Shown piece by piece: positions 41,246 through 61,031 of a stretch of 64,000 nucleotides of DNA. Both the position numbers and the translations under genes were made by a program. The stretch is from Candidatus Zipacnadum vermilionense. Its GTDB lineage: Bacteria; Armatimonadota; Zipacnadia; Zipacnadales; Zipacnadaceae. Under the pieces are notes generated by a model, which worked only from the letters and a program-made list of their open reading frames with translations, did no database searches and was not told the origin of the DNA. The stretch covers positions 1 through 64,000 of the forward strand of contig JALGSV010000003.1 in assembly GCA_029821755.1 (NCBI GenBank), given 5' to 3'. Positions within the stretch are counted from its first letter, which is position 1, and every line of letters starts with the position of its first letter.

Positions 41246-42757
41246 CTAGGGCCCGCCCGGCCCTCCCGGCGGCGGTGCCATGGGAGGCATACCCGGAGGC
41301 ATCCCCGCAGGCATGCCGGGCAGCACCCCGTTCGCACCTGTCGCCCCCGCCGGTGCGATCAGGCTGTTCGTCGTCTCGGGCAGGCCACGCAGCAGGCCCC
41401 CGTCTATCTCGTAGACATCAGTGGCCAGCGAGGTCCGCGCGTAATAACGCTCGGTCTCATTGGGCACCTTCGCGCCTATCCAGATGGTGATTGGCTTGCC
41501 CCGATTTGCCGTTCCCACCGTGATGGTGGCCTGCGGGAGGTTGAGGCCGTACTCATCCAAGTCAGCCTCGGCCCCGTTCTCCACCGGGTAGGCCAAAGCC
41601 TGCAGATCGATCAAAGCGAATAGGAGATCACTCACCGCTGTGGAACTGGCTTTGCCCGTTTTGGGCGCGGTCACCTGCCATTCCTGCCCGGACTTCATCA
41701 TGCTGAAGTTCAAGCCCTGTTCCCGTTGCGCCCGCACGCTGTCGATCTCGTCCTGCTTGACCTGCAGAATGTGTTTGTCGCGCAGGTCCAGAACGCCCTT
41801 GTTGAGTTCGGTGAATAGCGGAGCTCTGATCATCAGGATCTCCGGGCGACCCTCGCACGTCGCGTAGATGATGGCCTCGTCGGTGGTCCCGGCCGTCTCC
41901 CCTGGAGCCGTCGCGGCGGTCTCCACTGCATGCTTGCCCTCGCCCCCCACGTAGATGGTGGTCGGCTCGGAGCCCTCGTGCGTAACGGTGATCGTAAGCC
42001 GAGGCTTGTCTAGCCCGGTCGTGGCCAGATTCTCCTGCGTATAGGGCATGAAGGCCACGGCCTCTGCCCCGCTCAGGCCGAAGGTGGCCGCCTCCACCGC
42101 AGCCTTGTCCGCCTTTAGCGGGCGCGGGGCCGTGATCCGCCACGTCGTTTCCTTGGCGAGCGGCACCAGCGCCGCGGTCACGGTCTCGTCGCCCCGCTGG
42201 ATAGTGATCTGCTTGACGGCGTCCGTCTTGAGGTCGGCCACCAGCTTCTTCTCGCGCATTGTCTCGGGGTCCTTGTCAACATCCGAGAGGAACGACTGGT
42301 TGATCAGGAACAGCGCTGTGGGTTCGTTGCTGATAGTAGAGAAGACCATCGACCCCAGCGGGCTCTGCTTGCCCAGGCGTATAACGGCCGTACGATTCCC
42401 TTTGTAGGTGACCGTCACCGTTACCTGCGGGGCGTCGAGCCCGAACTCGGGATCCTGCAAATTCTTGCCCTCGCGCTTCTGCGGCTTGAGCGCGGCGATG
42501 GCCTGCACTACCTGCTTGGCGGTGTCCTTCGCCATCAACCCCTCGAAGGGCTGAGTGATCCACCACTCCTCCCCGCGCCGAGCCATAGTGTACTTGTAGT
42601 CCTTGGCCTGGACTTGAATCTGGGAGATGTCCGCCAGTTGCAGGGAGAAGTACTCGCCCTTCTCGGTGACCCGGCCGCGCTGCTGGAGCATCATATAGAC
42701 CAGCAGACCAGCGAAAACCACTCCGACTATTGCTGTGGTACGGTAGCGCTTCTTCAT
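41246..42757 (-). CDS. DUF4340 protein of the Gld-like ABC module
   Basis: The protein has 503 residues; start ATG 42757 has a GGAGGAG SD. One membrane helix at the N-terminus (AIVGVVFAGLLVYMML, about 8-23) is followed by three repeats of a beta-rich DUF4340-type unit (ISQIQVQAKDYKYTMARRGEEW, VKQITIQRGDETVTAALV and IDSVRAQREQGLNFSMMKSG). Each ends with a Y/F-x-L-D/N-x-P segment such as EFGLDAPQVTVTVTY, TGLDKPRLTITVTH and EYGLNLPQATITVG. The tail is Pro/Met/Gly-rich. DUF4340 proteins usually sit next to GldG-like proteins and ABC exporters, as here, and act in the periplasm. The start lies four bases past the GldG-like stop. Confidence 0.85.
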   Translation of the reverse strand: MKKRYRTTAIVGVVFAGLLVYMMLQQRGRVTEKGEYFSLQLADISQIQVQAKDYKYTMARRGEEWWITQPFEGLMAKDTAKQVVQAIAALKPQKREGKNLQDPEFGLDAPQVTVTVTYKGNRTAVIRLGKQSPLGSMVFSTISNEPTALFLINQSFLSDVDKDPETMREKKLVADLKTDAVKQITIQRGDETVTAALVPLAKETTWRITAPRPLKADKAAVEAATFGLSGAEAVAFMPYTQENLATTGLDKPRLTITVTHEGSEPTTIYVGGEGKHAVETAATAPGETAGTTDEAIIYATCEGRPEILMIRAPLFTELNKGVLDLRDKHILQVKQDEIDSVRAQREQGLNFSMMKSGQEWQVTAPKTGKASSTAVSDLLFALIDLQALAYPVENGAEADLDEYGLNLPQATITVGTANRGKPITIWIGAKVPNETERYYARTSLATDVYEIDGGLLRGLPETTNSLIAPAGATGANGVLPGMPAGMPPGMPPMAPPPGGPGGP

Positions 42758-42761
42758 GGGG

Positions 42762-44429
42762 CTATCTCCTCCGCGTCCACCACACCGACACCCCGGCCAC
42801 AATGATCCCGAGCGGGATGAAGACCATCACCACGAAGATGATGAAATTCTTCTGCGTGCTGGTCAGCAGCAGGTTGTGGGGTGTCTCTGTCTTCGGCGGA
42901 ATAGAGATCAGGCGGACGTTCTTCGACAGCCACGCGATCGAGTTGAGCGCCAGGTAACTGTTGAACTTGAACCGCTGCGCGATGGCATCGGTTAGGGCCA
43001 GGTCGCTACCGATCACCACGATGCGCGTGGCGTCCTGGTCCTGCTGGGGAGGGGGCGGAGACCCGGGCATCGCCGGCGGTGCCGGCGGAGCCTCGTCCAC
43101 AGTGGCAGCCATTGCGAAAGCACCCACCTCCGCGTTGGCCGGCTTCTGCGGCATCCCGGCCTGCTCCGGGTTCGTCTGCAGCCAGGCCGAAGCGCTGGAG
43201 TCCAATAGACCGACAGCGGGCCCCGAGGGGGGGGGCGGCATCCCGGGCGTTGTCGGAGGTGCGCTAGACTGCACCTGCATGGCGCGCGCGAAAGGCATCA
43301 CCAGACGTTCAACTCCCTCTACTATCGGCGAGCCCGGGTTAGGGGTCACCAAGGGGACTTGTTCCTGGCCCAGGAAGTTGGCGTCCGGATCGATCACCAC
43401 GCCGGCCAGCACTGTGACCCCGCGCTTGGCGAGTATCGCCGAGAAGTCCGGCGCGGGCGGCGGAGCCAGGGCCAGCAGCAGCTTGCCTTTGTCGTCCACC
43501 CAGCCCTCAATAGCCTTCATCTCCTCGGGCGTCGGCGCCTGCTTGGCCCCGATGATGGCCAGGACGTCACAGTCCTGCGGGATTTCTGGCGTTGCCATCT
43601 TGGCCAGATCCAGATCGTTGACCACATATTGTTGGTTGCCCAGGTCGGACTTAAGCGCCGCTACGCTATTCTGCCCGCCGGCCGTGCTCGTCTCTCCATG
43701 CCCCACCAGGAAGTACACGGTGGTCTTGGTCTCAGTGGTCACCGAGAGAATGGCGGAGGTCATCCGCGACTCGTTCACGTCGGTGACCTTCTCCTTCCGA
43801 TCACCCGACTTGACCACCACCGTCCCGGGGAACGTAACCTCGTATTGTTTGGCCAGAGTCACATCGGTGTAGTCTGCCCAGGTGATCTTCATGTGCGGCG
43901 ACAGCGTGGCGTAAAGCTGCACCAAGTCGCGGGAGCTCTTGGGGCTACCGGAATCCTGGGGCAGGAACGCGATCATCTCAATGTCATTGTCTAGCCCCTT
44001 GAGCACCGCCATCGACTGCGGCGCCAGGGAGTGGATCTTGTTCTCCGTCAGATCCAGCCGCGGATGGTGACGAGCGACGATGACATTGAGGCAGACGACA
44101 ATGCCCAGCACGAACAGGACAAAGCCGACCGAGTTGAGCACCAACCTGGCCGCCCGCGTGCCGGCAATCTCACGTAGATTGCGCAAATTGTACGCCACCC
44201 ACATGGCTACGCCCAGCACACCGACCGCGCCGATGAGGACCGGCGGCAACGTCAGCTTGCCCGCAATGCCCCACCAGGCCAGCGAGACAACGAGCAGGCC
44301 AAGACCGACCCAGATCACGATCTGGGTGCTGCGCACCAGCCCTGCAGCGGCCTGCGGCCGCTGCAGCCGGGGGTCCGCACCTCGGGCGAGTTGCTTTTCT
44401 GGTTTCGGAGTGTTTTTCTCTTCGCTCAT
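42762..44429 (-). CDS. GldG-like ABC auxiliary protein
   Basis: The protein has 555 residues. Three membrane helices near the N-terminus (IVIWVGLGLLVVSLAWWGIA, LPPVLIGAVGVLGVAMWVAY, LVLNSVGFVLFVLGIVVCLN) precede a periplasmic domain of the ABC_transp_aux/GldG type: RLDLTENKIHSLAPQSMAVL, IEMIAFLPQDSG, YFLVGHGETST and QDCDVLAIIGAKQAPTPEEM. A second half with a Pro-rich insert and a last membrane helix (FIIFVVMVFIPLGIIVAGVSVW) follows. GldG is part of the gliding-motility ABC complex of Bacteroidetes, but homologues are widespread in non-gliders. The neighbouring permease and ATPase complete the set. It probably handles an envelope lipid or polymer. Confidence 0.88.
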   Translation of the reverse strand: MSEEKNTPKPEKQLARGADPRLQRPQAAAGLVRSTQIVIWVGLGLLVVSLAWWGIAGKLTLPPVLIGAVGVLGVAMWVAYNLRNLREIAGTRAARLVLNSVGFVLFVLGIVVCLNVIVARHHPRLDLTENKIHSLAPQSMAVLKGLDNDIEMIAFLPQDSGSPKSSRDLVQLYATLSPHMKITWADYTDVTLAKQYEVTFPGTVVVKSGDRKEKVTDVNESRMTSAILSVTTETKTTVYFLVGHGETSTAGGQNSVAALKSDLGNQQYVVNDLDLAKMATPEIPQDCDVLAIIGAKQAPTPEEMKAIEGWVDDKGKLLLALAPPPAPDFSAILAKRGVTVLAGVVIDPDANFLGQEQVPLVTPNPGSPIVEGVERLVMPFARAMQVQSSAPPTTPGMPPPPSGPAVGLLDSSASAWLQTNPEQAGMPQKPANAEVGAFAMAATVDEAPPAPPAMPGSPPPPQQDQDATRIVVIGSDLALTDAIAQRFKFNSYLALNSIAWLSKNVRLISIPPKTETPHNLLLTSTQKNFIIFVVMVFIPLGIIVAGVSVWWTRRR

Positions 44430-44536
44430 CTCTGTATCACCTGGGGACAGGGAAAGGACTGACTTGCATTAGAAGAACAGGCTGCCCGGCTAGCGCCTGC
44501 GTGTATGGCCCCAGCCGATGATCTCGAGCTCGAGCG

Positions 44537-45253
44537 TCAGATGCTCCGCCGGTTCTCGACGAGCCGCTCGGCGAGGAACACGAAGAACCCGGCGACGCTA
44601 AGGAAGTAGACGACATTCTTCAGGTCGATTACCCCGCGTGCGAAGTCCATGTAGTTCTCCACGAAGGACAGGTGGTTGAGGACGCCACCTATCGCCGCAG
44701 GCACTGACTGGCCCACGAAGCCGATAATCCAGAACAGCAGCAGAATAAAGAAGCTGCCCAGCGCTGCGCCTATCTGGTCCGACGTTATGGCGCTCCCGAA
44801 TATCCCGATGGCCAGGAAGGCCAGCCCCGCACAAAGGAGGCCCAGGTACCCGGCGAAAACAGAACCCCAATCCATCTCACCGCCAACCGACATCATCAGC
44901 GGAAACAGGAGGGTGACGATCAGTAGGCTGACGTACAGGCCCGCCGCCGCGAGGTACTTGCCGACGACGATGGCCCAATCGCTCACCGGACGTGTCATGA
45001 GCAGTTCCAGGGTCCCTCTTCCCCGCTCCAGGGCCAGCAGCGACATTGTCAGCACCGGGGCCATCATCAGGGCGATGAAGACCATCGACTGGAGTACATC
45101 CCGGTAGTTACTCGTCTGGGCCTGAGGCATGGTCAGGGTCATCACAAAGATGAGCCCGCTCACGCCCAGGAAGAACAGGATGACCACATAGGCCATGGGC
45201 GCTGTGAAATAGCCGCGAAACTCCTTTGCCGCAACGGTTAGCATGGATTTCAT
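44537..45253 (-). CDS. GldF-like ABC-2 permease
   Basis: The protein has 238 residues with six predicted membrane helices in the ABC-2 arrangement: MAYVVILFFLGVSGLIFVM, MVFIALMMAPVLTMSLLAL, AGLYVSLLIVTLLFPLMMS, VFAGYLGLLCAGLAFLAIG, SFFILLLFWIIGFVGQSV and FLSVAGFFVFLAERLVEN. The conserved cytoplasmic part ERGRGTLELLMTRPVSDWAIVVGKYLAA matches the ABC-2 family. It follows the ATPase with the stop and start codons adjacent. The ATPase, this permease and the GldG-like and DUF4340 proteins make a four-gene operon, comparable to gldA-gldF-gldG plus DUF4340. About 107 bases of non-coding sequence separate it from the GldG-like gene. Confidence 0.9.
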   Translation of the reverse strand: MKSMLTVAAKEFRGYFTAPMAYVVILFFLGVSGLIFVMTLTMPQAQTSNYRDVLQSMVFIALMMAPVLTMSLLALERGRGTLELLMTRPVSDWAIVVGKYLAAAGLYVSLLIVTLLFPLMMSVGGEMDWGSVFAGYLGLLCAGLAFLAIGIFGSAITSDQIGAALGSFFILLLFWIIGFVGQSVPAAIGGVLNHLSFVENYMDFARGVIDLKNVVYFLSVAGFFVFLAERLVENRRSI

Positions 45254-46183
45254 CTAGGCCGCACTCTCCTTCCGCGTCAGAGCGTGGAAGACGTCCTCCA
45301 GCGTCATCTCCAGCGGAGACAACTCCAGCAGGCCCCAGCCCTTTTCCACCGCGTTCTTCACCAGTTCGCTGCGTGGGTCAGTCCCGATGCGGGCGTCAAC
45401 GAGGTACGTATCGCGCGCCTGCTGCTGGGCGCCCACTACATTGGGGATCTGCCGCAATTGGGCGAGGATGCCTTCGGACGGGCTCTTGACCACGAGCCGG
45501 TAGGTCTCTGCCTGGCGAATCTGGGCCGTCAGGCGGCTGGGAGCTCCCTCGGCGATGATGCGCCCGTGGTTCATGATCAACACCCGCTCGCACGAGGCCT
45601 GCGCCTCGGGGAGGATGTGGGTGGACAGGAGGATCGTGTGCCGACCGGCCAGTTCTTTGATCAAGCCCCGGACTTCGACGATTTGAATGGGGTCCAGGCC
45701 GATGGTGGGCTCGTCGAGGATCAGCACCGGGGGGTCGTGCAGCAGCGCCTGGGCCAGGCCGACACGCTGCCGATACCCGAGCGAGAGGAAGCCAATCATC
45801 GAGTCCGCCCGGTCCTCCAGGGAGCACTTGCTCAGCACGAAGGCCATACGGTCCGCCAGTTCCTGGCGGCCCATGCCCTCCAGTTTCCCGCAGTAGGTCA
45901 GGTACTCCGTGACCCGCATATCAGGGTAAAGCGCGATGTGCTCCGGCATGTACCCCACATGGCGTCGCGCCTCCAGAGACTCTTCGGAGACATCGTGCCC
46001 GGCTACGAAGGCCCGGCCCGCAGTCGCCGACATGTACCCGGTCAGGATGCGCATAGTAGTGCTCTTGCCGGCACCGTTGGGGCCCAGGAAGCCAACGACC
46101 TCCCCCTCCGCGACCTCAAACGACACGTCCATGATGGCCGGATGGGGCCCATAGAATTTGGTCAAACCCACAGCCTCAATCAT
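45254..46183 (-). CDS. GldA-like ABC transporter ATPase
   Basis: The protein has 309 residues. It has a complete nucleotide-binding domain: Walker A GPNGAGKST (34-42), Q-loop VGYMPEHIALYPDMRV, signature LSLGYRQRVGLAQALLHDPP, Walker B LILDEPTIGLDPIQ and switch His in LLSTHILPEAQASC. The extra 90 residues at the C-terminus (SRLTAQIRQAETYRLVVKS onward) are common in the CcmA/NatA-like subgroup that pairs with ABC-2 permeases. It leads the GldF/GldG/DUF4340 operon. GldA homologues are needed for gliding in Bacteroidetes, but in other bacteria they likely serve envelope export. Confidence 0.92.
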   Translation of the reverse strand: MIEAVGLTKFYGPHPAIMDVSFEVAEGEVVGFLGPNGAGKSTTMRILTGYMSATAGRAFVAGHDVSEESLEARRHVGYMPEHIALYPDMRVTEYLTYCGKLEGMGRQELADRMAFVLSKCSLEDRADSMIGFLSLGYRQRVGLAQALLHDPPVLILDEPTIGLDPIQIVEVRGLIKELAGRHTILLSTHILPEAQASCERVLIMNHGRIIAEGAPSRLTAQIRQAETYRLVVKSPSEGILAQLRQIPNVVGAQQQARDTYLVDARIGTDPRSELVKNAVEKGWGLLELSPLEMTLEDVFHALTRKESAA

Positions 46184-53004: not shown

Positions 53005-53010
53005 GTGCCC

Positions 53011-56000
53011 ATGTTCGCGAGCAAACCCCCAGCCCCGATTCTCGGACTGTGCGGCCTGCTGCTAGGCTGTTTGCTCGCGCCGGCCCCCGCGCGGGCGGGC
53101 TGGGCCGACTCCATCCAGGAGTTCCTGGACCGCGCCGGCCTCTTCCAGGGCGTACAAGCCAGCGGGCAAAACACTCTCACCCTCCAGCGCAACTTCTTGC
53201 AGGGCTCCCAACAGGCCTTTGAGGGGCAACGCTGGGATACCGGCAATTTCTATCGCCAGAGCAGCCTGCACCTCGAGGGACCCATCTGGAAGAAATTCGG
53301 CTTCCAAGCCGACCTGTCCGCGTCCGGGTGGGGGCAGGATTATACCCGCTGGGTACTGGGATACGTCGGAAACGACACGGCGGTCTACTACGGCGATCTG
53401 AACGTCAACCTGCCCGGCAACGAGTTCGCCTCCTTCTCCAAGAGCCTACGCGGCTTCCAGCTGGACCAGGCCCTACCCAACCGGGGCCTGCTGCGGGTCT
53501 TTTACTCTCAGGAAAAGGGCTATACCCGCAATGAGACATTCCCCGGCAACAACACCTCCGGCCCCTATTTTGTGACCTACACGCCCATCATCGATAACTC
53601 GCTAAACGTCAAGGTTGACGAGCGCATCCTCCAACTGGGAACCGACTACCGGGTGGACTACCAGACCGGGGAGTTGTGGTTTGAGCCCACTAGCGGCCCG
53701 CCGCGCATCATCCCCAGCACCTCCACCATCTCCGTCAGCTACCAGTCCTCGGGCTACAGCAGTAACGTGGGGACGCTCTCGGGGGTGCGGGCCGAGATGC
53801 CCCTGCGGCGCGGGCGAGGTGTGGTGGGGTTAACGGTGCTGCGACAGAACCGGCCCGCCGTGGGGCAGGGCGACACCGCCGGCTACCAGGAGGACATCTA
53901 CGAAGGATCGGGCACCACCGGGCCCTTTGACACCAACTACCGGCCCATCCTAGCCGATGGAGCCTCCGTGACCTACCGGGGCGAAACCAAGACCATCACC
54001 AAGGCAATAGTCGTCCTCGTGGACTTGCAGGAGCAGCGTGAGGGCGTGGACTACGATGCCTACCGTTCCATTGGCCGCGTCATCTTCCGGCGAGCCGTCC
54101 CTCCCACCTCTCTGGTGAAGATTCAGTACTACTATAGCCTCGGCATCACCTACGGCTCCCCGGATCTGCAGATCAACGGGCTGGACCTGTCATACCGGAT
54201 CTCTAATAACATGTCGCTGGTCGGCCAGTTCGCCCGCAGCACCGGCGGCTCCAGTGGCTCCTCCGGCACGGCCCTCTCGACGCTGCTTGCCTATAGCAAG
54301 CCCAACTTCAACATGACTGCCGAATGGCGCAACATGCAGCCCACCTTTAGCTACATGGACACGGTGGGCTTCTACCGCTCGGAGTCGGGGCTCAACACCC
54401 GCCTGGACTGGAGGCTGAACCAGTACCTCAGTCTCAGCAGCCTCTACTCCGACGTCAAAACCAACAACGGTCTTTCCTTCGGGTATAGCGGCTACAGCGG
54501 CTATAGTACCTTCGACACTTACAGCACCTACTCGGCGCAAGGGTTGGGACCACAGCAGACTACCACTCCCACCTCCCTCGACGTCCGTGCCAAGCACGCT
54601 TCCCTGGGGCTGCAATATCTCAAGCCGGGATTACCGGCGCTAAGCTGGACCCTGGACAACATGTCCAACTCCGGCGGTTCCCTGGGCAAGAGCACTTATA
54701 CCATCAACCAATTCCAGGTACAGCACGACTTCAGCACGCGCCTGAAAGCCCAGGCCTCCTGGCAGAACAACCACCAGACCTACGGTGGTGGCTCCGGGGA
54801 ATCGGCGACTCCCCCGGCGAGCAGCAACTCGGTCCTCTCGCTGATATCGGTCACCTGGAGTCCGAATGAGAAGCTGTCCTTTTCCGCCAACCTGAACAAT
54901 AACCGCTCCACCGGAAACTCGGCCACCGGCACTGATATCAATCCCGCCTCCTCCACAGCCACCGCCTTACAGCTCTCCGCGCGCTGGGCGCCCAGTCCGC
55001 AACTCAGCTTCAACCTCGACCGGACCGGCACCGTATCCAACGGAGCGGTGGGCAGCGGCCTCTACGGTGGGATTGGTGGAGGTCTCTACACCATGGGGAC
55101 GTCGGCAGCCACGAATCCAATGGGAGTCTCCTCCCCGACAGGGCAGCCGGCTCTGCCCTGGGCGGCGCTTGGGCCTCAACAAATCTCCGGTGGCGATAGC
55201 GATACCGATACTTCCACCCGTTACGAGGATGTTAACACCACCCTCGGGATCACCTACAGCCCCTCAGACAAGTTGAACCTGGGCATCAATCTCGCGCGCC
55301 GCAGCTATCTGAGCAGCGGAAACGTAGGGTACCTGGCCGACAGCGTGCAGAACACTCACAACCTGTTTGCCACCTATCGCTTCTCCCCCACTTGGTCGCT
55401 AACCACTAGTCTGGGTAATGACAAGCTGGTCTTCACCGACCCCGGGCGTGGTGCGGTCAGCAACAACATCTACACCGCCTCGCTCAACTACCAGCCCCAG
55501 CAGGCGCCCTGGGGACTGGGACTTACCCTCAACAAGCAGAGGGGCGCCAGCCCCACCTACGTCTCCTTCGGGGATCGGCAGCGCTATCTCATGGTGGATA
55601 CCGGCCTGACAGACATCAGCGGCCAGATTCGCTACCGATTGCACGACAACTCCAGCGTGTACTGCAACCTGGGACTATCGGATTTTGCCAGCGGCTACGC
55701 GGCCTTCAAGAAAAGTACCGCCGACGTCGGATGGCAGACCAATCTGGGCAAGTCGACCCAGCTCAACTTCGGTTACCGTTTCATCAAGAACCTGGCCGGC
55801 ACTCCCACCACCCCGATCTTTACCGGCCCCGCGGTGACCGGCCAGGACTACCTCTCCAACACCTTCGCCCTCACCATCACCACCAGCTTCAGCGGCGGGT
55901 TGGGCAGGAGCGGAACGGGCGCCAGCGGAGTCGGGCCGTTAGCGGGTACGGACTACGGCAACATGGGTTACACCGGTTTCGGCTCCGGCTTTGGCAGCAG

Positions 56001-56394
56001 CACCGGCCTGTCCACCTTCGGCGGCTACCAGACCGGCATCGGCTCGGGGTCGGGTTATTCGGGTGCCGGATACTCCAGGCGAACAGGGACGTTCGGCAGC
56101 GGCTTTGGCGGAGGTATCTCGAACTCCTACGGGAGCTACGGCAGCGGACTCGGGCGTTCGAACTATAGCGGATTCGGCTCGAGCGGCGGCTTCTCCACCG
56201 GTCTGGGGCAGTTCCAGCAGAGGGAGAGCACCACGCGGCCCTCGACACAGCCGTCACTCGGCTGGAGCCCGACTCAGCCCGGGACGCCGGCTGCCGGCGG
56301 GGAGACCCTCCCGCCCACGGCCGAGGATTACTACTGGTACTGGCAGGAGGGCCTGTCCCGCTGGGATCTCGGCGCTCCTGGGGAATGGTGGTAG
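53011..56394 (+). CDS. Very large outer-membrane beta-barrel with SprA-like repeats
   Basis: The protein has 1,127 residues from ATG 53011 (GTG 53005 is an alternative start). A signal peptide (about 1-30, ILGLCGLLLGCLLAPAPARA) is followed by a periplasmic-looking segment and then many amphipathic strands. Between 160 and 260, NSLNVKVDERILQLGTDYRV, DYQTGELWF and TSTISVSYQSSGYSSNVGTL, and again VDLQEQREGVDYDAYRSIGR, VIFRRAV, LVKIQYYYSLG, recall the (V)x-G-x-DY-x-V-D-x-x-x-G-x-(I/V)-x-F repeats of SprA-type outer-membrane proteins. Hundreds of residues of NQTT/S-rich strands, then a Gly/Ser/Tyr-rich tail (about 970-1080) follow. It heads a four-gene run. Its function is unknown; export or adhesion at the surface is possible. 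Confidence 0.75.
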   Translation: MFASKPPAPILGLCGLLLGCLLAPAPARAGWADSIQEFLDRAGLFQGVQASGQNTLTLQRNFLQGSQQAFEGQRWDTGNFYRQSSLHLEGPIWKKFGFQADLSASGWGQDYTRWVLGYVGNDTAVYYGDLNVNLPGNEFASFSKSLRGFQLDQALPNRGLLRVFYSQEKGYTRNETFPGNNTSGPYFVTYTPIIDNSLNVKVDERILQLGTDYRVDYQTGELWFEPTSGPPRIIPSTSTISVSYQSSGYSSNVGTLSGVRAEMPLRRGRGVVGLTVLRQNRPAVGQGDTAGYQEDIYEGSGTTGPFDTNYRPILADGASVTYRGETKTITKAIVVLVDLQEQREGVDYDAYRSIGRVIFRRAVPPTSLVKIQYYYSLGITYGSPDLQINGLDLSYRISNNMSLVGQFARSTGGSSGSSGTALSTLLAYSKPNFNMTAEWRNMQPTFSYMDTVGFYRSESGLNTRLDWRLNQYLSLSSLYSDVKTNNGLSFGYSGYSGYSTFDTYSTYSAQGLGPQQTTTPTSLDVRAKHASLGLQYLKPGLPALSWTLDNMSNSGGSLGKSTYTINQFQVQHDFSTRLKAQASWQNNHQTYGGGSGESATPPASSNSVLSLISVTWSPNEKLSFSANLNNNRSTGNSATGTDINPASSTATALQLSARWAPSPQLSFNLDRTGTVSNGAVGSGLYGGIGGGLYTMGTSAATNPMGVSSPTGQPALPWAALGPQQISGGDSDTDTSTRYEDVNTTLGITYSPSDKLNLGINLARRSYLSSGNVGYLADSVQNTHNLFATYRFSPTWSLTTSLGNDKLVFTDPGRGAVSNNIYTASLNYQPQQAPWGLGLTLNKQRGASPTYVSFGDRQRYLMVDTGLTDISGQIRYRLHDNSSVYCNLGLSDFASGYAAFKKSTADVGWQTNLGKSTQLNFGYRFIKNLAGTPTTPIFTGPAVTGQDYLSNTFALTITTSFSGGLGRSGTGASGVGPLAGTDYGNMGYTGFGSGFGSSTGLSTFGGYQTGIGSGSGYSGAGYSRRTGTFGSGFGGGISNSYGSYGSGLGRSNYSGFGSSGGFSTGLGQFQQRESTTRPSTQPSLGWSPTQPGTPAAGGETLPPTAEDYYWYWQEGLSRWDLGAPGEWW

Positions 56395-56397
56395 CAC

Positions 56398-58626
56398 ATG
56401 AAGTATGACAAGCGCGTAGTGAGCGGAATACTCCCAGCGGTGGCGCTGGCTCTGCTCGTCGCCGCGGCTCCGACCTGGGCCGCGTCCTTCCGCACGCTGG
56501 TAAACGAGCCCTTCGCCACCGTTTGCACGGGGCCCCAGGGGGCCATCCTGGACACGGCGCCGGCGAGGGGCAAGGTCAGCGCCATGGCGGCCGGCAACGT
56601 CGTGGCGGCGCAGCATCCCGTTACCAGTCTCCAGCGAGCCGTGCGTGGCTTGACTTTGCTGACGCGCCACGGCGGCAAGCCCCCCCGCTCGGCCGCTCGC
56701 GCCCGCTTCCCCCGCATGATGTACCGGGTCCGCAACGGTGGCCTAGTCCTGCCCAACCTGGTCCGCGCCCTCCAGACCGGCACCGGGATCGGCAATCCCG
56801 CCAACCAGCTCACCTTCCAGTTCAGGGGGTGGTCGACCGCTGACCGGACCGCCCTACAGGCGTACCTCAACAACGCCTACCCCAAGATGCGGCTGGTCTA
56901 TGGTCCTCCCGCCTTCAACATGACGATCACCATCGTCCTGGACACCTCCATCCATCCCCTGCAAGGCGGTGTGTACAACGCCACGACCAACGAGATCCGC
57001 CTGCCCCCGCTATCCGGCAACTTCCCCGAGGATACCTTCGTCCTGTGCCTGATGGTGCTCCACGCCTTCCACGACGACGTGGCCTTCTACTACGACGCCT
57101 GGGAGGGCGGCATGGCCGGTGCGGCAGCGACGGTTGTCCAGACTATGCCGGGCGTGGCTCCGGGCTACGATCCCGTCGACCCCGGCCCCTTCTACGCCTG
57201 GTCAGTCTACGAGTGCGAGAACCAGCCTGCCCTGGCCAACAACACCTTCTATCCCTCCTCGGGCTTTGACGGCATGCTGGCCTGGCGTATTGCCATGGCC
57301 CGCACCGTGTGGCTCAAGGCCTGGGCGGAGGACAACAACTTCTTCAGTAACTTCAACCAGGCCTACTACGCCGCCTCCGTTCCGGGTCTGCCGGGCGACG
57401 TACCTGCGCTCAAGGAGATTGCCGCGACCATCCTACCCGAGGTGGAGGGATTCTCCTTCCACGACTGGTACATGCGCCAGTACATCCTGGACACCTCCGT
57501 GCATACGGGGCTGAAATTGTACACCTGGAACGCCCCGCTGGAGGACGCCGTCATCCTCATCACCGATCACTACCTCACCGGCCCGAACGGTGACGAGTCG
57601 CCCCGGTCGGGCACGCCCCGGCTGATCTACTGGAACTACGACTACACCCTCAGCCTATACTCCGAGGAAGGCAACGTCATGCCGACGATCGCGGCCACGG
57701 GGCCGGGAGCCGGCGAGACCCAGTTGATCCCCTCCTTCTCCAGCGTCGGCGGCCCGCAGCGCATCACCGTGCAGTTGGACGTCAACGGCCTGCGGGGGAT
57801 GTACCCCTATGCGTACGGCGTGCGCGGCTTCAACCCCGGCGAGAATAACTTCTGGGGCTCAGTTATGGGCGGCCCCGTAGCCAACCTCGATGTTACCGGG
57901 GTCTACAACAGAGCCAGTATCGGCGCAACCCGGGGAGTCTGGGGTACGCTCTTGGGCAGCGGTCCCCGGCTTACTCCTGGCCAGATCTCGGTCCTGATCA
58001 CCAATCCCCTGGGCCAGCAGGTGGAGCGCAAGCTGAACGTCGGCTGGGACGGTTATACCGCCTTCCTGCCCGGCGGCGGGCAAGCCGGACTCACCCACAC
58101 CTTCCGACGCGAAGGCACCGGCATGAGGATGATCTCCTTCCCCCTTGAGCCCACCGAGTCCAACGCGGCGGCCCTACTGGGGATAGACGCCAGACGTCTG
58201 CTGCTGGCGCGCTGGGACCCCACGGCGCTGCCGGATGGGGCCTACCAGATCTGGCCACGTATTGACCCGTTCAGCCCGGGACGGGGGTTCTGGGTCAAAC
58301 TATACGAGGATGTCACCGTGGACGTGCAGGGCATCCTCCCGCCGACCGATCGTACCTACGCCCTGGGGGTGCCGCTGGGCTGGAGCATGGTGGGTAGTCC
58401 GCGGCGAGTGAACGTACCCGTCAGCGAACTAACGGTGCAAGCGGGCACGGACAATCCCCTACCCTTCGCCGACGCCGTCACTAACGGCTGGCTGCAGCAA
58501 GGCTTCTACCAGTATAACCCGCCAACCAACGCCTATGAAATGGCCGACACGATTGAGCCCTTCGAGGGCTACTGGCTACGGTGCCTGATGCCGGGTGGAG
58601 TCCGGGTGATCTTCCCGGCGGCCTGA
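56398..58626 (+). CDS. Secreted protein with degenerate peptidase-like centre
   Basis: The protein has 742 residues and starts four bases past the barrel gene stop, so it is probably coupled. A signal peptide (about 1-28, ILPAVALALLVAAAPTWA) leads a positively charged region, then an alpha/beta part with TIVLDTSIHPL and LCLMVLHAFHDDVAFYYDAWE, GGMAGAAATVV. The layout H-A-F-H plus a downstream E-G-G-M-A resembles a zinc peptidase (HExxH...E), but the first Glu is absent and only two residues separate the His, so catalysis is doubtful. The last 250 residues are beta-sandwich-like (AGLTHTFRREGTGMRMISFP, PLGWSMVGSPRRVNVPVSEL), similar to surface-attachment domains. It probably works with the neighbouring outer-membrane protein. 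Confidence 0.7.
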   Translation: MKYDKRVVSGILPAVALALLVAAAPTWAASFRTLVNEPFATVCTGPQGAILDTAPARGKVSAMAAGNVVAAQHPVTSLQRAVRGLTLLTRHGGKPPRSAARARFPRMMYRVRNGGLVLPNLVRALQTGTGIGNPANQLTFQFRGWSTADRTALQAYLNNAYPKMRLVYGPPAFNMTITIVLDTSIHPLQGGVYNATTNEIRLPPLSGNFPEDTFVLCLMVLHAFHDDVAFYYDAWEGGMAGAAATVVQTMPGVAPGYDPVDPGPFYAWSVYECENQPALANNTFYPSSGFDGMLAWRIAMARTVWLKAWAEDNNFFSNFNQAYYAASVPGLPGDVPALKEIAATILPEVEGFSFHDWYMRQYILDTSVHTGLKLYTWNAPLEDAVILITDHYLTGPNGDESPRSGTPRLIYWNYDYTLSLYSEEGNVMPTIAATGPGAGETQLIPSFSSVGGPQRITVQLDVNGLRGMYPYAYGVRGFNPGENNFWGSVMGGPVANLDVTGVYNRASIGATRGVWGTLLGSGPRLTPGQISVLITNPLGQQVERKLNVGWDGYTAFLPGGGQAGLTHTFRREGTGMRMISFPLEPTESNAAALLGIDARRLLLARWDPTALPDGAYQIWPRIDPFSPGRGFWVKLYEDVTVDVQGILPPTDRTYALGVPLGWSMVGSPRRVNVPVSELTVQAGTDNPLPFADAVTNGWLQQGFYQYNPPTNAYEMADTIEPFEGYWLRCLMPGGVRVIFPAA

Positions 58627-58648
58627 GGGTGGAGACTGCGACCATGAG

Positions 58649-59836
58649 ATGGTAAGACTTCTGCGTGCGACAATCTCCTACAACTGGACGCTCGGGGCGG
58701 CTGTGGCCGCCTTGATGCTGGCCGCGGGTTGCGGCGGAGTAGGCTCTGGATCAACCCCGAGCCAGCAAACGACCACCGTGATCGTTGAGACGGTCCAGCA
58801 AGGTACTACTGACCTGCTCCCCGTAGCCGCGGACCTCGTCGTCGGCGGCGTAAAAGGCAAGATTGACATGACCCAGGGCTGGGCCGTGATTGGCGGCGTG
58901 CCCTTGGGCGACAAGACGCCGCCGGAGCAGCCGCTGACCGCCAGTGCCCCGGGCTGGGTCACCGTCTCGCAGATACTCACGCTCAACACTTACTCCTACA
59001 CCTCGGTGAGCGTCGAGATGGCCGCGGCCGACCCGACTGTGACCGCTACTGTTGAGGGCACCGTGACCGCCGAGGACGGTACGCGGGCTATCGTCAACGC
59101 AGTGGTAACCTTCACCCCGGCCAGCGGCGACCCGGTCGTGGGTTACACGGACAATGCCGGACACTACAAGTTTACTGGCGTTCCTGCCGGGCAGGTAACA
59201 GTGATGGCGCAAGCTAGCGACTACCTGGAGACCACCAAACAGCTAACTCTGACCTCCGACGCGACCGGCGCTAACTCCCCGGTCAACCTCGCCCTACTCA
59301 GCGGCAGCACCAAGCTGACCGTTACTGGCCAGGTGTTGCGCGTTGGGCTTGACACTCCCATCGCCGGGGGACAGGTGCAGATCGACGACCTCCCCCCCGT
59401 CACTACCGGCGCCGACGGCAGCTTCAGTGTGCCCCAGGTGCCGGTAGGCACCCAGACCATCCAAGTTAGCGCCTCGGGCTACGACGACAAGCAGCAGCAG
59501 CTCGCCGTCACCCCCGGTATGTCACTGGTGACAATCTACCTAGCGCCCACCTCACCTTTCCCGCCGCCTACGCCCTATACCCTCACCGGCACGGTAACGC
59601 TGCTGGGGAGGAGCGACAACTCGGGAGCCACGGTGACCGCGCTGAGCAAGGATCTCGGCCAGGTGATGGACACCGCCACCACCAACGCAGCCGGGGACTA
59701 CTACCTGTTCGTGCCGCCGGGCTCCTACCGGATCACGGTCCAGTACGGCTCGCACAGCATTGGGCGCGATGTCGTGCTGCTTGGTGGCGGACGGGTGCTG
59801 ACGGGTATCGACTTCACTCTCTCCGTCACCGGCTGA
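58649..59836 (+). CDS. Lipoprotein with carboxypeptidase-regulatory-like beta domains
   Basis: The protein has 395 residues from ATG 58649; an earlier ATG (58644) hits a stop after three codons. The lipobox is LAAGC (cysteine near residue 28) after an Ala-rich hydrophobic stretch. It then carries several carboxypeptidase-regulatory-like (CarboxypepD_reg/PEGA-like) beta-sandwiches: EGTVTAEDGTRAIVNAVVTF with YTDNAGHYKFTGVPAGQVTV, TGQVLRVGLDTPIAGGQVQI with TGADGSFSVPQVPVGTQTIQ, and TGTVTLLGRSDNSGATVTAL with TNAAGDYYLFVPPGSYRITV. The domains often support binding or act as spacers. It is the third gene of the secreted run, 22 bases after the previous stop. Confidence 0.82.
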   Translation: MVRLLRATISYNWTLGAAVAALMLAAGCGGVGSGSTPSQQTTTVIVETVQQGTTDLLPVAADLVVGGVKGKIDMTQGWAVIGGVPLGDKTPPEQPLTASAPGWVTVSQILTLNTYSYTSVSVEMAAADPTVTATVEGTVTAEDGTRAIVNAVVTFTPASGDPVVGYTDNAGHYKFTGVPAGQVTVMAQASDYLETTKQLTLTSDATGANSPVNLALLSGSTKLTVTGQVLRVGLDTPIAGGQVQIDDLPPVTTGADGSFSVPQVPVGTQTIQVSASGYDDKQQQLAVTPGMSLVTIYLAPTSPFPPPTPYTLTGTVTLLGRSDNSGATVTALSKDLGQVMDTATTNAAGDYYLFVPPGSYRITVQYGSHSIGRDVVLLGGGRVLTGIDFTLSVTG

Positions 59837-59915
59837 TGCCTCCTCGCCGGGAGGTATGCAGGCGCAGGGAGATGCTATGGTGAAGAGGTGCTCTCCGAGA
59901 GGGAGGCCATATTCG

Positions 59916-61031
59916 ATGTTTCCGAACAGACTGCAACTGTTGCGGCTGATGCTTCTCCTGGGAGCGGCGAGTGCGCTTCTACCGGCGGATGCTCAGCCCT
60001 CCGCCCCTGCCGCCGGACCCAATGGCCAGCAAGGGCCGTTGCTTGAGGTCGAGGAGTCCCTCTTCGACGCTTTCTTGACCACCCCGGGGAGGCCGGACTG
60101 GGCTCCCCTGGAGATTCTGTGGGGCCACCGCGAATGGCGCGAACCACTGCTTCTACGCCTGCGAGACCAGGACCCCACCGAGCGCGCCCGCGCCGCTCTC
60201 GCCTTGGGCCTGACCGGCGCCACGCGCGCCCGGAGAGCCTTGGCTGACGCCCGGCACGACCACGAAGCCGTCGTGCGCCGCTATGCCGGGTTGGCGCTGT
60301 GCTATATGGGGGACAGTCGCGGCGAGGCGGAAGCTACGCGGGTGCTGCGCGAGGGTGAGGTCTGGGAGCGCTACCTGGCGCTGATCGGCCTATGGAGACT
60401 GGACTCGCCCAGTACGCGCACCATGCTGGAATCCCGGCGCCTCGATCAGGGCCCCCTCGTAAAGAGTCTCATCCCCTTGGCTCTGGCTTCACGCCCCTGG
60501 AAACCCACTCATCCTTACCCCAGCCGTACGGGGGACACCCCCGAGGCCGCTCCCGGGGAGGAGCTCTGGGAGCAGGTCGCTGACGATCTCGCGCTGAGTT
60601 CGGACTACTGGTGGCATGAGGGGGACTACGACCAGGTCTGCGTCCTGCTGGAGCAGTCGCTATTCTTCAGCCCCCACCGGGTAGAGACCTACGACGACGT
60701 GGCCTGGCTGCAGTGGAGTCTGGGACACGGGCAGCGGGCAGTGCAGGTCCTGGAGAAGGGGATCGCGGTCAGCCCGGAGAGCTGGCTGGCGCACTTCAAC
60801 CTCGGCTTCCACTACTTCAACACCAAGCGCTACGCCCCGGCTCTTCCCTACCTCAAGTACGCCGTCGAGCACACCGAGACATGGTGGGTGCCCCTGCACA
60901 CCTACGCTCACGACCTCGAAGCGCTGGGGAAGCGGGACGAGGCCCTCCGGGTGTGGCAAGAAACCGTGCAGCGTTTCCCCCAGGATGAGACTGCACGGAG
61001 GAATCTGGCGAGGCTGACCGGCACCCGGTAG
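59916..61031 (+). CDS. Exported HEAT/TPR-repeat protein
   Basis: The protein has 371 residues from ATG 59916 (SD GAGGGAGG nine bases upstream); ATG 59877 with GGGAG is an alternative that only lengthens the n-region. A signal peptide (about 1-26, LRLMLLLGAASALLPADAQ) is followed by HEAT-like helical pairs (RLRDQDPTERARAALALGLTG, DHEAVVRRYAGLALCYMGD) and, after residue 200, TPR-like units (DVAWLQWSLGHGQRAVQVLE, AHFNLGFHYFNTKRYAPALP, DLEALGKRDEALRVWQE). Such domains bind partner proteins. It is the last gene of the secreted cluster, converging with cdaR. Its job may be to hold the barrel or peptidase-like protein in the periplasm. Confidence 0.8.
   Translation: MFPNRLQLLRLMLLLGAASALLPADAQPSAPAAGPNGQQGPLLEVEESLFDAFLTTPGRPDWAPLEILWGHREWREPLLLRLRDQDPTERARAALALGLTGATRARRALADARHDHEAVVRRYAGLALCYMGDSRGEAEATRVLREGEVWERYLALIGLWRLDSPSTRTMLESRRLDQGPLVKSLIPLALASRPWKPTHPYPSRTGDTPEAAPGEELWEQVADDLALSSDYWWHEGDYDQVCVLLEQSLFFSPHRVETYDDVAWLQWSLGHGQRAVQVLEKGIAVSPESWLAHFNLGFHYFNTKRYAPALPYLKYAVEHTETWWVPLHTYAHDLEALGKRDEALRVWQETVQRFPQDETARRNLARLTGTR

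Follow-up and report, generated by a model that had tools for sequence, protein, structure and literature searches.

A conserved gene set of Armatimonadota led by a giant outer-membrane barrel with SprA-like inserts, a possible channel for proteins ending in a FlgD-like domain

Gene organization of the locus

The stretch of DNA analyzed here (64,000 nucleotides, hereafter the window) belongs to a 158 kb contig of a 4.4 Mb genome, the near relatives of which carry the label candidate division WS1 or Candidatus Zipacnadia (phylum Armatimonadota). Positions 53005-61031 hold four open reading frames on the forward strand, here called BARREL, PEPT, LIPO and HEAT/TPR, flanked on the opposite strand by SppA/PolI upstream and YbbR/CdaA downstream. 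BARREL (53005..56394, +; GTG start, alternative ATG at 53011) encodes a 1129-residue outer-membrane beta-barrel protein, PEPT (56398..58626, +) a 742-residue exported pseudo-peptidase with Ig-like and GWNMIGSP domains, LIPO (58649..59836, +) a 395-residue lipoprotein with three CarboxypepD_reg (transthyretin-like) repeats, and HEAT/TPR (59856..61031, +; alternative ATG at 59916) a 391-residue exported protein that is a lineage-specific neighbor. A sequence-only reading of the window had described four closely spaced genes in one direction, each with an export leader or a lipobox. The layout was borne out, with gaps of 3 (BARREL-PEPT), 22 (PEPT-LIPO) and 19 or 79 (LIPO-HEAT/TPR, depending on the start) bases, and signal-peptide-like N-termini were found together with the lipobox LAAGC, whose cysteine (Cys28) is invariant in 21 homologues of LIPO. 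The CarboxypepD_reg domains proposed for the lipoprotein were likewise recovered (E=2.9e-30), and the HEAT/TPR nature of the fourth protein was confirmed.

Conservation and genomic context

A profile search found BARREL in 40 of the 41 genomes of the order (candidate division WS1/Zipacnadia, Armatimonadota), mostly in single copy. BARREL, PEPT and LIPO follow one another in this order and on the same strand in all 24 genomes of the order with a contig long enough for the arrangement to be tested; in the remaining seven, the contig breaks off within the set. HEAT/TPR adjoins the set in only six relatives, every one from the window's own family, and was for this reason ruled out as a fourth core member; it probably does not belong to the conserved module. 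The four-gene set proposed earlier thus stands for its first three genes only.

Of the 291 genomes of the phylum, 234 are matched by the BARREL profile and 275 by the PEPT profile, some of the latter matches covering only the C-terminal domains of PEPT. Among the genomes outside the order in which both genes could be placed, BARREL precedes PEPT within 5 kb and in the same orientation in 17, is far from it in 4, and is on a different contig in 51. Separation of the genes in relatives, which the earlier reading had named as evidence against it, is accordingly not seen within the order and is partly seen in many other Armatimonadota. The adjacency of PEPT and LIPO, with LIPO directly downstream, is kept in nearly all loci inspected. 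When 84,980 species genomes were scanned with two peptide patterns from BARREL, matches were found only in Armatimonadota or in unlabelled MAGs. No Pfam family matched BARREL, and a literature search returned no description of BARREL, of DUF5693, or of a T9SS in Armatimonadota.

Mostly outside the window's order (e.g. at loci L175, L183, L187 and L190), CsaB (PS_pyruv_trans) and DUF5693 are encoded directly upstream of BARREL, and in many lineages LIPO is closely followed by LptC- and OstA-like genes. Clustering of the flanking genes suggests an ancestral cluster of DUF5693, CsaB, BARREL, sometimes an extra CarboxypepD_reg protein, PEPT, LIPO, an LptC-like and an OstA/LptA-like gene. Elsewhere in the phylum, the neighborhood of BARREL is one of envelope biogenesis, and the three genes are supported as an old conserved envelope module of the Armatimonadota with the giant barrel in the lead. 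A widespread, mostly single-copy barrel of this size that has no Pfam family points to a function at the core of an entire diderm phylum.

Predicted structure of BARREL and its SprA-like inserts

BARREL was modelled with AlphaFold2 from 32 sequences (pTM 0.65), and about 38 long strands were counted in the predicted transmembrane barrel region (residues 51-965; 53155..55899, +). The region is followed by a Gly/Ser-rich tail (residues 967-1129; 55903..56391, +) that is predicted to be disordered (pLDDT <50). The sequence-only reading had named an ordinary porin as the outcome that would speak against it; with the strand number predicted here, BARREL does not appear to be one, and its lumen is probably wide enough for a folded or partly folded protein. 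As the loops connecting the modelled strands alternate between long and short, both termini would lie in the periplasm, as would two inserts, the first between strands 8 and 9 (residues ~186-250; 53560..53754, +) and the second between strands 12 and 13 (residues ~310-378; 53932..54138, +). Profile comparison of the two inserts shows them to be homologous (hhalign probability 97.8, E=6.8e-13).

Insert 1 carries a conserved G-DY---Y--G pattern and aligns with positions ~603-688 of the SprA/Sov model TIGR04189; in the window protein, the match to this part of the model (positions ~590-690) has E=7e-5, and the best match of the insert, in a homologue from the same class, has E=2.5e-15. Scores reached 54.8 bits at L175, 39 at L183 and 35.7 at L187, the matches overall spanning 20-55 bits over ~90 of the 2319 model positions and always falling far below the curated cut-off of 200 bits, which no protein exceeded in the 21 genomes searched, the window's own included. 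Two LptD-like and two other outer-membrane proteins used as controls gave no match to TIGR04189. The motif of the inserts is also similar to phage tail proteins. Two DY-x-V-D-x-x-x-G repeats had been reported earlier; the exact motif occurs once (DYRVDYQTG, residue 214), and the second copy departs from it (DYDAYRSIG, residue 349). Since 5% of shuffled sequences contain two loose DY-x6-G motifs, the motif alone is weak and its count was dropped as stand-alone evidence, the homology of the inserts being carried by the profiles.

Structural comparison of BARREL with Foldseek returned outer-membrane barrels including SlpA, LptD, SprA, TonB-dependent receptors and SusC, all with low TM-scores; SprA (6h3i) was among the largest matches (TMq 0.28). 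Apart from FlgD, no meaningful match came from searches of PDB sequences with BARREL and PEPT as queries, and no SLH, OstA, LptD (PF04453), TonB plug or SusC/SusD domain of Pfam was matched by BARREL. Because the insert matches stay below the cut-off and the TM-scores are low, we regard BARREL as a giant barrel with a SprA-related domain that lies outside the curated SprA family. The earlier description of the lead protein as SprA-like therefore holds for its inserts and does not extend to membership in that family.

PEPT and LIPO

The core of PEPT resembles a metallopeptidase, with a Foldseek probability of 1.0 to several M1 aminopeptidases, although the TM-scores are low, no Pfam family was matched and the HExxH motif is destroyed. 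The degraded motif (HAFHDD ... WE-G, residues 222-237; 57061..57108, +) was located by alignment of homologues; all 32 aligned PEPT sequences, drawn from across the phylum, show a degraded HExxH with the consensus HAFH[DG], and nearly all have an alanine at the position of the catalytic glutamate. None of the 32 sequences thus presents the HExxH of the M1/gluzincin zinc and catalytic residues, so that catalysis by the HExxH mechanism has been lost, and PEPT was ruled out as an active peptidase on the grounds of this phylum-wide degradation. In other families, PEPT ends in an extension of ~250 residues closed by a FlgD_ig-type domain, which most families keep; the window's PEPT and its nearest relatives have lost the extension together with this C-terminal domain. 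PEPT and LIPO are a conserved partner pair, probably acting as surface-exposed or channel-associated cargo and receptor.

A FlgD-like C-terminal domain that co-occurs with BARREL

A profile was built from the last 85 residues of the long PEPT homologues. This tail domain matches FlgD_ig (PF13860) above the cut-off. In the window's genome the profile gave 16 matches. In the seven strong ones, 0-4 residues separate the domain from the stop codon. The other nine are weak, lie within their proteins as FlgD-like domains, and were set aside. The strong set comprises tandem secreted subtilases, another subtilase-like protein, a beta-helix protein and others, and those inspected mostly have signal-peptide-like N-termini. 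In the loci retrieved, each of the 91 strong matches stops no more than 10 residues from a stop codon.

When strong matches of both profiles were counted in the 291 genomes, using cut-offs set by the analyst, BARREL and the tail domain occurred together in 207, were jointly absent from 66, and were found singly in 18 (273 of 291 concordant; p-values for this association ignore relatedness). By family, 31 have both, 13 neither and one the domain only. This is the pattern expected of a channel and its cargo signal, though shared divergence can mimic co-loss, as both profiles were built from a single order and weaken with distance; in one genus, the genomes with weak BARREL matches were weaker for PEPT too.

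Several gene arrangements involving the tail domain were observed. At L243 in the window's own genome (contig C86:3573-10523), two tandem secreted S8 subtilases both end exactly in the 85-residue domain, and adjacent pairs of matches resembling this one are seen in several relatives. A further locus of the same genome (L244, contig C38:24000-43000) groups three tail-domain proteins with a clostripain-like C11 peptidase, which could act as a sortase, with a CsgG-like protein, and with what is probably an outer-membrane protein bearing an Ig domain of the invasin type. Fimbriimonadia-like genomes (L270-L277) encode essentially one tail-domain protein (~950 residues) followed by an outer-membrane protein of ~670 residues made of an Ig part plus a barrel, a relative of which seems to be encoded in the window's genome as well.

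Possible functions of BARREL

We tentatively propose that Sec-exported proteins with the FlgD-like domain at their end cross the outer membrane through BARREL, a reading that is the most economical one and that we hold to be possible and well short of established. In such a scheme, Sec would bring the tail-domain proteins to the periplasm, where their 85-residue C-terminal domain would be recognized at BARREL, which would pass them outward across the outer membrane, with PEPT and LIPO as a dedicated surface pair. The earlier suggestion of an export or adhesion apparatus gains indirect support on the export side from the shared C-terminal domain that co-occurs with the barrel; adhesion found no direct support. 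Several observations count against BARREL as exporter: the window's own PEPT has lost the tail domain, the curated cut-offs of TIGR04189, TIGR04183 and PorV_fam are never passed, the two profiles share their divergence, the inserts have a motif like that of phage tail proteins, and the Ig-plus-barrel protein of the Fimbriimonadia-like genomes is a rival partner or exporter for the tail-domain protein encoded there.

The neighborhood of BARREL lends itself to two other explanations, both of which we consider rather unlikely and which keep their place because of the CsaB and LptC/OstA neighbors. BARREL might be an abundant scaffold that exports no protein, holding PEPT and LIPO on the surface and linking the outer membrane to wall polysaccharide. 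CsaB pyruvylates wall polymers, and SLH domains bind these; in other families BARREL directly follows CsaB and DUF5693, a Deinococcus SlpA/S-layer complex is among its best Foldseek matches, and the repeats of LIPO are adhesion-like beta-sandwiches. However, BARREL itself has no SLH domain, a protein of about 38 strands present once per genome would be unusual for a mere scaffold, and the co-occurrence with the tail domain is left unexplained. The LptC/OstA-like genes downstream of LIPO, read together with CsaB and DUF5693 upstream of BARREL, would instead suit an export or assembly channel for surface polysaccharide or lipid that works with these proteins. LptD barrels are among the top Foldseek matches and EpsL is matched weakly (E=2.8e-5), yet the EpsL match is below the cut-off and BARREL has no OstA domain. 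Like LptD and SlpA, BARREL is a large outer-membrane barrel, but it shares no sequence similarity with either. Moreover, relatives encode LptD-like proteins elsewhere (L197 and L198, so called from a weak LptD match and by eye), and the LPS channel is thus not missing.

The same two proteins largely refute the idea that BARREL replaces LptD, and LIPO replaces LptE, throughout the phylum, which we judge highly improbable. It would fit the LptC/OstA neighbors and the lack of any PF04453 match above the cut-off among 121 Armatimonadota. In the control set, however, PF04453 matched only Escherichia coli and Caulobacter and missed a Bacteroides genome with an OstA-type protein, so its absence means little. 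The Pfam LptD model also misses L197 and L198 or scores them below the cut-off. The pairing of a barrel with a lipoprotein, and the SusC structures among the Foldseek matches, recall SusC/TonB-like uptake of large nutrients with LIPO as the surface-binding lipoprotein; this is improbable given that neither a TonB plug nor SusC/SusD was matched in Pfam and that the inserts are predicted to sit in periplasmic turns, not in an N-terminal plug.

Should the export reading be true, the proteases that these bacteria, most of them uncultured, secrete would have a candidate exporter in BARREL, and T9SS-like secretion would be older or more mobile than thought.

Comparison with the type IX secretion system

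T9SS has been reported from Bacteroidetes only (PMC4793230) or from the FCB superphylum (PMC11205867), whereas the host phylum here is Armatimonadota. BARREL resembles SprA, the barrel of which has 36 strands (PMC10994853), in what is predicted to be a giant single-chain outer-membrane barrel, and its one insert domain of ~90 residues matches the SprA model in many homologues. It differs in its length (1129 against ~2300 residues), its about 38 predicted strands, its scores far below the curated cut-off, and its duplicated inserts, predicted to be periplasmic.

Other components show a similar mixture. PorV/PorQ-like outer-membrane barrels, all below the cut-off, are encoded in 14 of 21 genomes of the order (L249-L252; best 65 of 90 bits, E=8e-18); none of the 21 has a PorV_fam protein above 90 bits, and no PorV/PorQ relative was detected in the window's own genome. 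The match to the PorU model was confined to its C-terminal-domain part. On the reverse strand of the window (41246-46183, -), 7 kb from BARREL, lies an ABC transporter set resembling GldA (E=2.9e-90), GldF (E=4.2e-39) and GldG, all below the curated cut-offs, together with DUF4340.

As the tested T9SS features stay below curated cut-offs, the BARREL system may work like T9SS and is not claimed to be one. That a channel for T9SS-like export exists beyond the phyla in which T9SS is known is a prospect that we raise with reserve. More doubtful is the complete picture of an Armatimonadota secretion system working like T9SS and combining the SprA-like barrel, a FlgD-type sorting domain, PorV/Q-like carriers, possibly the C11 sortase, and the PEPT/LIPO surface module. 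The putative cargo offers a parallel: these genomes, like those with T9SS, encode secreted proteins with an Ig-like C-terminal domain. Unlike the type A C-terminal domain of T9SS (TIGR04183/PF18962), the tail domain passes FlgD_ig and reaches TIGR04183 with at best 17.4 bits against a cut-off of 23, which none of the PEPT homologues tested exceeded; like it, the tail domain has ~80 residues, is Ig-like, stands at the extreme C-terminus of exported enzymes, and carries a basic residue at or near its end.
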